A program made the translations under genes and the position numbers. DNA of 34,583 nt from positions 1 through 34,583 of the forward strand of contig DAIEHY010000008.1 in assembly GCA_027353165.1 (NCBI GenBank), read 5' to 3'. The stretch comes from Desulfosporosinus sp. Lineage in GTDB: Bacteria; Bacillota; Desulfitobacteriia; Desulfitobacteriales; Desulfitobacteriaceae. This document shows, in pieces, positions 10,005-22,266 of the stretch. Numbering within the stretch: the stretch's first letter is position 1; every line of letters starts with the position of its first letter. The notes under the pieces were generated by a model. That model searched no databases and had not been told where the DNA came from. It was given only the letters and a program-made list of their open reading frames with translations.

Positions 10005-10049
10005 TAAAAAAGGACAGAGGAAATGCGTTATCGCACTTCCTCTGTCCTT
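10005..10049 (-). terminator. Riboswitch expression-platform terminator
   Basis: Minus strand AAGGACAGAGGAAgtgcgataacgcaTTTCCTCTGTCCTT followed by TTTTATT. Confidence 0.9.
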
Positions 10050-10222
10050 GAACCTGAGAGATTCGCCGCTTTGCGGCTTCCCCTTTGGTGTTCTCTTTAT
10101 GAGAAACTCTCCAGAGTCCCGTCTACTAGCAGTACTTTTGCCTGAGAGTTTGCTTCTTAAAAAAAGCGATTTTTAAGAAATTTCTCCTTCGGCGTCTAGA
10201 TTTGACCAGATCTCTCCCGCTA
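10045..10222 (-). promoter_or_regulatory. Tandem (two-aptamer) glycine riboswitch
   Basis: Two GGAGAG...CTCTCAGG cores on the minus strand: GGGAGAGATCT...ACGCCGAAGGAG...CTCTCAGGCAAAAGTACTGC and GGACTCTGGAGAG...ACACCAAAGGGG...CTCTCAGGTTCAAGGACAGAGG; directly upstream of gcvT. Confidence 0.93.
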
Positions 10223-10337
10223 GTATCATTCGGTTATTAAACTATTGCTATTATTCTATATAATATGCTATTTTTCCAATTAAGTCTACTGGGATTTTCT
10301 TGATAAAGCAAACTGATAGTTCAGTACTCGGGAAATA

Positions 10338-17657: not shown

Positions 17658-17681
17658 TTTAACCTCCCTGGCTAGTTCGAC

Positions 17682-17723
17682 GATGTTAGATGTTAGATAT
17701 TCGATATTCGATATTCGATGTTC
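17682..17723. repeat. Six tandem 7-bp units
   Basis: gatgtta|gatgtta|gatattc|gatattc|gatattc|gatgttc between the histidine kinase stop and the HlyD-like start. Confidence 0.85.
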
Positions 17724-19799: not shown

Positions 19800-19816
19800 C
19801 TAACTCACCCCCTAAT

Positions 19817-19886
19817 CGAGGCACAATGCTCGAATTTGTGCACCTCTCATGCATCATGTATCCCACCTCGTGCATCTCGAATACTA
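19817..19886. repeat. Degenerate 7-bp periodic array, about 10 units, spanning the pgeF stop codon
   Basis: cgaggca|caatgct|cgaattt|gtgcacc|tctcatg|catcatg|tatccca|cctcgtg|catctcg|aatacta. Confidence 0.5.
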
Positions 19887-21010: not shown

Positions 21011-21286
21011 CTACCGACGGTCTTCGTTTTCAAGATTAAATTCTGGCAGATCGTTGACATCGACTAAAATGACATCAACCCCAATCTTCTTAACGCGATC
21101 CCAAGGGATAATATAATCCTCCGTCTTACCACCACCAAAGAGCCCCCAACTTTTTGACGGTCCTGGCACAATAATTCCTTTGACAACACCCCGTTCTAAA
21201 TCGAGGTCTAGGTCTTTGATGGGCCCTAGCCTTCGTCCATCCTTAACATTCACGACATCCAATAATCGCAAATCCGAAACGCGCAT
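21011..21286 (-). CDS. ylmC: YlmC/YmxH family PRC-barrel sporulation protein
   Basis: MRVSDLRLLDVVNVKDGRRLGPIKDLDLDLERGVVKGIIVPGP; IIPWDRVKKIGVDVILVDV. Confidence 0.92.
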   Translation of the reverse strand: MRVSDLRLLDVVNVKDGRRLGPIKDLDLDLERGVVKGIIVPGPSKSWGLFGGGKTEDYIIPWDRVKKIGVDVILVDVNDLPEFNLENEDRR

Positions 21287-21303
21287 TTTAGACCCCCCTT
21301 AAT

Positions 21304-21366
21304 CGAGGCTCGATGCCCGAGGCGCGAGGCTCGAGATTCGAAGACCGAAGTCCAATATCATATATC
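21304..21366. repeat. Degenerate 7-bp periodic array, about 9 units
   Basis: cgaggct|cgatgcc|cgaggcg|cgaggct|cgagatt|cgaagac|cgaagtc|caatatc|atatatc; seven consecutive CGA-led heptamers. Confidence 0.75.
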
Positions 21367-21492
21367 GGGCTTTACTCTTCGGCATCGTCTATCTCATCAT
21401 ATGAGGGAAGGTCTTAAAATAGCCTACTGTTCACAGATATTTCAAGGTTAAACAAGGATCATCAGCTTACGCATAGCGCATCAATCCGCACT

Positions 21493-22266
21493 CTACACAA
21501 ACTTGCGCATATGTTGCATCGCAGCTTTCTCAAGACGAGATACCTGTGCCTGAGAAATTCCAATCTCATCCGCAACTTCCATCTGAGTTTTCCCTTGAAA
21601 AAAGCGCAAAGACAAGATTAATTTTTCTCGTTCACTTAAGCGTCGCAAGGCTTCCCGTACAGCAAGTCCTTCCACCCAACCTGTATCCGACTGCTTATCA
21701 TCCCCGATTTGATCCATAACAAAAATAGGATCTCCTCCATCATGATAGATGGGTTCAAATAATGAAATCGGTTCTTGTATGGCATCTAAAGCAAAAACAA
21801 CGTCTTCTCTCGGCAGAGCAAGCTTATGGGCGATTTCTGCAACTGTGGGTTCACAAGAACGTTCACTAACCAACTGATCCCGGACTTGAAGTGCCTTATA
21901 AGCAATATCACGCAAAGACCGACTTACTCGAATCGGATTATTATCTCTTAAATAACGACGAATTTCCCCGATGATCATGGGTACGGCGTAAGTAGAGAAC
22001 TTTACATTCTGACCAAGATCGAAATTATCAATCGCTTTCATTAGCCCTATACAACCGACTTGAAAAAGGTCATCGACATATTCTCCACGATTCGTAAACC
22101 GTTGAATCACACTGAGAACAAGACGGAGATTCCCATGAATAAGTTTGTCTCGAGCACTGCGATTTCCAGCTTGATAAATCACAAACAACTCTTTCATCTT
22201 CACGCTGGACAATACCGGCAACTTCGAGGTGTTCACTCCACAAATCTCAACTTTATTTAATGCCAA
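21493..22266 (-). CDS. sigG: RNA polymerase sporulation sigma factor SigG
   Basis: NKVEICGVNTSKLPVLSSVKMKELF N-terminus and full sigma-70 regions 2-4. The track start (22338) adds a non-homologous stretch; a TTG at 22264-22266 preceded by GGGAGGTG at 8 nt spacing is the better start. Confidence 0.95.
   Translation of the reverse strand: MALNKVEICGVNTSKLPVLSSVKMKELFVIYQAGNRSARDKLIHGNLRLVLSVIQRFTNRGEYVDDLFQVGCIGLMKAIDNFDLGQNVKFSTYAVPMIIGEIRRYLRDNNPIRVSRSLRDIAYKALQVRDQLVSERSCEPTVAEIAHKLALPREDVVFALDAIQEPISLFEPIYHDGGDPIFVMDQIGDDKQSDTGWVEGLAVREALRRLSEREKLILSLRFFQGKTQMEVADEIGISQAQVSRLEKAAMQHMRKFV

Follow-up and report, generated by a model that had tools for sequence, protein, structure and literature searches.

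The heptanucleotide array upstream of ylmC in a 34,583-nucleotide stretch of Desulfosporosinus sp. DNA (hereafter the window) belongs to what is apparently a previously undescribed, lineage-wide family of loose 7-base arrays that sit at gene edges in a fixed direction. The explanation we prefer, and to which we give roughly even confidence, is that it represents one arm of a palindromic intergenic repeat that evolves by slippage and has spread through Desulfosporosinus and related genera.

The array (21304..21366, minus strand) was delineated from the sequence, TRF, a pattern scan and shuffles. Read on the plus strand, its units are CGAGGCT (21304), CGATGCC (21311), CGAGGCG (21318), CGAGGCT (21325), CGAGATT (21332), CGAAGAC (21339) and CGAAGTC (21346), with six different units among the seven; this CGA-initial part (21304-21352), made of CGADGYN-type units, is followed by two decayed heptads, CAATATC (21353) and ATATATC (21360). 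TRF independently calls a repeat of period 7 at 21303-21335. The longest chain of CGA words at period 7 is seven in the window compared with one to three in 300 dinucleotide shuffles, and when all periods from 4 to 15 are allowed the shuffled window yields chains of at most four (100 shuffles). A pattern scan of the window permitting at most one mismatch returns nine matches against 0.07 expected, and this excess together with the shuffles rules out a chance origin. An earlier note on this DNA had described seven CGA-initial units at exact 7-bp steps followed by decay, located between sigG and ylmC, non-coding and not a simple identical repeat; this description proved right in every part, unit by unit, but it overlooked the inverted-repeat partner, the wider family of CGADGYN arrays, and their polarity and position relative to the stop codon and Shine-Dalgarno (SD) sequence.

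The flanking genes, identified with NCBIfam models, are sigG upstream (21493..22212, minus strand; TIGR02850 equivalog) and ylmC of the YlmC/YmxH family downstream (21014..21286, minus strand; TIGR02888), the start codon of the latter being at 21284-21286 (minus strand). In the sense of ylmC, that is on the minus strand, the array forms a right arm that reads ..TTCGAATCTCGAGCCTCGCGCCTCGGGCATCGAGCCTCG and ends 17 bp before the start codon, adjoining a GGGGGG Shine-Dalgarno run (21293..21298, minus strand). The left (partner) arm, in a decayed state and reading GACGATGCCGAAGAGTAAAG, lies at 21370..21389 (minus strand); it was recognized from the sequence and from the intact left arms present at the matching place of the ylmC gap in relatives such as G015, G021 and G003. 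By sequence comparison, the ylmC array is the right half of an inverted repeat in the leader of ylmC that has partly decayed. Directly upstream of the left arm is a promoter-like block, GGCTATTTTAAG..CCCTCATATGATGA.ATA (21390..21425, minus strand), which is kept in nearly all of the 30 orthologous sigG-ylmC gaps extracted for comparison and which we infer to be a sporulation-sigma promoter. As the element lies between this block and the SD sequence, it is probably transcribed as part of a 5' leader. A known structured RNA family was dropped as a candidate for this leader, since an Rfam search of 21280-21500 returned no match at E-values up to 1.

Most of the sigG-ylmC gaps share this conserved block. 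Left-format heptads often come next, and a variable middle section leads to right-format heptads that end ..CCTCGATTAGGGGGG before ylmC. When the leaders are aligned at their SD end, the three TCG phases carry a mean of 0.85-0.89 bits compared with 0.38-0.65 bits at the other phases, and this conservation fades approximately 30-35 bp upstream. The array is retained throughout the genus, with turnover of its units; in the divergent genomes G001 and G018, one unit or its remnant is left. In G021, G028, G016, G014 and G015 (L056, L053, L047, L057 and L035), the gap additionally contains a duplicated module, a second inverted array pair upstream of the promoter-like block, which ends ..TCGATTAGGG directly at the GGCTATTTT of the block.

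Arrays with at least four CG dinucleotides at 7-bp spacing were collected from approximately 1,500 gaps between predicted genes; gene starts for the polarity count came from a simple ORF caller, and many of the loci had been chosen for containing arrays. In co-directional gaps, 51 arrays begin 0-6 bp after the stop codon (10.6 expected under random placement) and a further 59 have their end 14-21 bp upstream of the start codon, at about 17 bp (11.6 expected). The stop-edge arrays read CGADGYN on the coding strand (47 plus, 3 minus, 1 neutral) and the start-edge arrays read its reverse complement (0 plus, 58 minus, 1 neutral), which amounts to outward polarity in 105 of the 110 arrays that are flush with an edge in co-directional gaps; the outward rule also holds at the stop and start edges of convergent and divergent gaps, in 14 of 14 cases. 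The units therefore read CGADGYN outward from the gene body, and because the pattern used to collect part of the loci was strand-symmetric, this polarity is not an artifact of collection. The unit consensus is CG, A (0.77-0.90), A/G/T, G (0.75-0.80), T/C and T/A; C is virtually absent from position four. On the start side, the arrays stop a few bases short of the SD sequence, which is retained.

Stop-edge and SD-edge arrays co-occur with an odds ratio of 22.7 in this array-enriched sample, and 56 adjacent plus/minus arm pairs form inverted repeats that span the gap. Of 30 lone SD-edge arrays, 26 are accompanied by a degenerate partner arm that exceeds the level of shuffles, and partnerless stop-edge arrays show little trace of one. 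The array-enriched sample also suggested a preference for co-directional gaps, but this is absent in untargeted DNA, where arrays of at least three units occur in approximately 5% of gaps of at least 40 bp whatever the gene orientation (28 of 524 co-directional, 3 of 82 divergent and 4 of 67 convergent gaps).

Six-unit arrays of the form CGA(N4)x6 were detected in 20 of 30 Desulfosporosinus genomes, with up to 62 matches per genome when overlapping matches of one array are counted separately; the backwards control pattern is near zero, and several genomes of the genus are without long arrays altogether. The test of intergenic 7-bp autocorrelation that the earlier note had proposed gave a clear signal. 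In the window's own genome, a draft that is 67% complete, the observed/expected ratios for CG in 179 kb of intergenic DNA are 2.67, 2.30 and 2.17 at lags of 7, 14 and 21, and in G028, a richer relative (683 kb), they are 2.28, 2.06, 1.83 and 1.55 at 7, 14, 21 and 28, with no comparable CG autocorrelation at these lags in the coding DNA of either genome. Related genera share the unit format CGADGYN. In a sample of 27 genera across the class, 6 carry the stricter format CGADRYN, and these include a second family within the order. Among the matches listed in a GTDB-wide scan, CGA heptads occur in many phyla, mostly as microsatellites of one or two unit types; compared with those matches, diverse units within one format are the mark of the Desulfosporosinus lineage. 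The gene-edge rule beyond the genus was read at two clear places in one genome (G047).

Several arrays stand out by their length. In the same genome, which belongs to another family of the order, arrays reach approximately 32 units, mainly CGAGGTC/CGAAGTC (for example L251, 8623-8843), and have a genome-specific flavor at the last unit position. A long, near-perfect array of 23 x CGAACTA lies directly before the SD sequence at L005 (G003), and at L008 (G007) another near-perfect one of 14 units, CGAACCA alternating with CGAACAT/CGAATAT, occupies the same position. The genes downstream of these two arrays, which have similar N-terminal coding sequences and presumably resemble microcompartment shell protein genes, share the place of the array and differ in its units.

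A dispersed palindrome, TTCGATTC-nnn-GAATCGAA, occurs in 16 of 30 Desulfosporosinus genomes, each of which has 1-13 copies, with none found for the backwards control. It mostly adjoins heptad arrays directly (for example at L304, L311, L007, L012, L013, L276 and L277), its copy number follows that of the arrays (rho 0.75), and it is absent from the window's own genome. It is locally clustered, with six copies within 13 kb of one contig of Desulfosporosinus sp. I2; one copy lies upstream of an mreB-like gene and others in the mur region. It could be a shared cis element or a small mobile palindrome.

Comparison with relatives shows how freely the arrays change. A second array of the window, located between a histidine kinase gene and its neighbor (17681..17723, minus strand; TRF and comparison with I2), is exactly two units (14 bp) longer than its counterpart in I2, so that the unit-number variation among relatives for which the earlier note had suggested looking does occur between sister species. 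Several units of the ylmC array also differ between the window and I2, and the murG gap holds an array in I2 and none in the window. Across 19 relatives, orthologous gaps range from 5-17 bp, little beyond the SD sequence, to 52-200 bp of wall-to-wall arrays, with the stop codon and SD sequence intact. Units are more alike within an array (0.70) than between arrays of one genome (0.53), with adjacent units no more similar than distant ones. A relic of the family was recognized, by comparison with relatives including I2, in the pgeF C-terminus and the following gap (19800..19876, minus strand): the last codons (19847-19876) are built of the heptads GATGCAC GAGGTGG GATACAT GATGCAT GAG, a short palindrome, GAGGTGCACAAATTCGAGCATTGTGCCTCGATTAGGGGG, lies between the pgeF stop codon and the next SD sequence, and the C-terminus is unlike that of I2. 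At the 3' end of pgeF, a heptad array has turned into coding sequence.

Heterocystous cyanobacteria contain STRR sequences, tandem heptanucleotides in non-coding DNA whose nearly identical units differ from CGADGYN. The likeness to STRR noted earlier holds for the general kind, but the nearest published parallel is provided by the heptads of Xanthomonas and Nostoc rather than by STRR alone. Rehm et al. (2015; PMC4692102), who also mention STRR, described GGGAATC heptads in Xanthomonas and GGGGA(C/T)T heptads in Nostoc/Anabaena near ORFs, on the non-coding strand upstream and the coding strand downstream, with 70-75 inverted pairs per Xanthomonas genome and a function that is unknown. The Desulfosporosinus arrays resemble both systems in being 7-bp intergenic units near ORFs, in their outward polarity and in differing in length between relatives at conserved places, and they resemble those of Xanthomonas in forming convergent inverted pairs. 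Their unit, in contrast, is unrelated and degenerate, they are tightly flush with the stop codon or SD sequence, and their host belongs to the Bacillota rather than the Gammaproteobacteria (Xanthomonas) or Cyanobacteria (Nostoc). The common CGADGYN units contain no run of G longer than GG (the unit CGGGGTT is rare, accounting for 4 of 285), and without a G-tract of three they cannot form a G-quadruplex of the Xanthomonas/Nostoc type. The Desulfosporosinus arrays are thus the Xanthomonas/Nostoc architecture with another unit.

A further parallel is the TAACTGA direct repeat of Beggiatoaceae, Cyanobacteria and Bacteroidetes, which lies mostly just upstream of start codons (MacGregor 2015; PMC4679880). 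It likewise consists of intergenic heptads with many sets per genome, a fixed orientation to start codons and 7-nt indels between strains, but its unit is unrelated and nearly invariant and contains stop codons in the forward orientation, stop-edge sets are few, and inverted pairs hardly occur. TAACTGA arrays moreover reach the start codon in place of the SD sequence, whereas the Desulfosporosinus arrays end approximately 17 bp before it and a strong SD sequence is always retained. Desulfosporosinus arrays also differ from REP/BIME, ERIC and other MITE-like palindromes, inverted repeats in gaps that often lie next to gene ends, in that they are built of heptads, with no defined ends or fixed length and no clear link to a transposase. 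In the open-access literature we found no description of heptad or intergenic repeats in Desulfosporosinus or Desulfitobacterium, which agrees with the earlier note, although such repeats may have been reported elsewhere.

In the account we prefer, the element would consist of degenerate CGADGYN heptads reading inward from both ends of a gap, and hence outward from each flanking gene. Arrays would grow and shrink by 7 bp at a time, with replication slippage aided by hairpins in single-stranded DNA as the most likely mechanism; the step changes and the likeness of units within an array are observed, and such turnover would explain the latter. The elements would fill dispensable space between functional signals (stop codon, promoter and SD sequence), which would account for their flushness with these signals, while the inverted-repeat form would account for the fixed polarity. 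If mRNA stability or translation were affected at all, this would be a by-product. This account is supported by the intergenic-only period of 7, the edge flushness and polarity, the 14-bp step between sister species and the co-occurrence of arms, and also by the range of gap lengths with intact signals, the within-array likeness and the strand-symmetric folding described below. Against it stand the partnerless stop-edge arrays and the weak arm-to-arm matching beyond the format. The format constraint (position 4 avoids C and position 6 is Y) and the higher TCG-phase conservation in the ylmC leader across the genus exceed what plain slippage would give; they hint that something recognizes the arrays, and a DNA-binding protein or a function in translation would be compatible with them.

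A post-transcriptional role, in which the arm in the 5' leader, alone or paired with the upstream arm, gates the SD sequence or provides translational coupling between the two sides of the gap, perhaps with the help of an RNA-binding protein that recognizes a UCG every 7 nt, is in our judgment unlikely. It would fit the ending of arrays at the SD sequence and their beginning at the stop codon, the genus-wide persistence of the ylmC-leader array with TCG as its most conserved phase, and a prediction that CCUC of the last unit pairs with GGGG over the ylmC SD sequence in the window, which is suggestive only; translational control has also been proposed for TAACTGA heptads at start codons (MacGregor, PMC4679880). 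The arrays do fold strongly, with z-scores of -3.81 and -3.88 on the two strands against a background of about -1.3, but the sense strand folds lower in 26 of 50 cases and thus has no advantage. Equal folding of both strands argues against selection on the sense RNA alone. The mismatches between arms likewise show no G-U bias (36 G-U versus 52 A-C), and convergent and divergent gaps are as array-rich as others in untargeted DNA. A selected sense-RNA hairpin is thus unsupported, despite the good folding of the region. Exact copying from one arm to the other is a weak effect only, as their match beyond the format is 0.554 versus 0.526 for random pairs of the same genome (35/2000 permutations). 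Strand-symmetric folding, the lack of G-U bias and this slight arm resemblance together favor a process or use at the DNA level over sense-RNA pairing.

Such a use could be a binding platform for a protein that reads CGADGYN every 7 bp at gene boundaries, for example as an insulator or nucleoid-associated mark, with three units spanning 21 bp, or about two helical turns. The format common to arrays, genera and families and the strand-symmetric properties speak for this, but no candidate protein was identified, several genomes of the genus are without long arrays, and unit numbers and flavors vary freely, and we regard it as quite unlikely. LexA and Spo0A boxes (CGAAC..GTTCG and TGTCGAA, respectively), considered owing to the CGAAC/TTCGA words in the arrays, were dropped; the arrays are direct repeats that vary freely at the positions these boxes fix. 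We place still less weight on the arrays being mobile palindromes of the REP/MITE type that a Y1 (IS200/RAYT-like) transposase mobilizes. Although the arrays are palindromic, dispersed and intergenic, and TTCGATTCnnnGAATCGAA often abuts them and tracks their number (rho 0.75), no constant ends or target duplications were seen, length is free in 7-bp units, and the weak correlation with Y1_Tnp counts across all 30 genomes (rho 0.39, p 0.034) is not significant in complete genomes (rho 0.32, p 0.13). That the arrays are ordinary microsatellites or VNTRs with no further meaning is highly improbable: a whole-unit length change (14 bp) does separate sister species, and CGA heptamer microsatellites occur in many phyla among the matches listed, but those have mostly one or two unit types, whereas the units here are diverse within one format rather than near-identical, and a microsatellite would not be expected to show strict gene-edge polarity.

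Many bacterial genomes contain an excess of heptad repeats. Because the Desulfosporosinus arrays have outward polarity without the G-tracts of Xanthomonas and Nostoc, the architecture is separable from the G-quadruplex explanation. It is conceivable, if quite doubtful as a whole, that Xanthomonas, Nostoc, Beggiatoaceae and Desulfosporosinus independently evolved unrelated outward 7-bp arrays as a general, heptad-based signal of boundaries or mRNA ends, which a conserved machine (polymerase, ribosome or end-binding protein) would read, and not through unit sequence or a G-quadruplex. Culturable Desulfosporosinus strains offer a testbed for a mutational versus a regulatory origin. The arrays also carry two warnings, that short gaps in Desulfosporosinus genomes change through the turnover of units and that the C-terminus of a gene can arise from an array, as for pgeF in the window. 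Elsewhere in the window, an ordinary glycine-GGAnGA riboswitch (RF03166, 113 bits) lies upstream of glycine cleavage genes at 10038-10233 on the minus strand.
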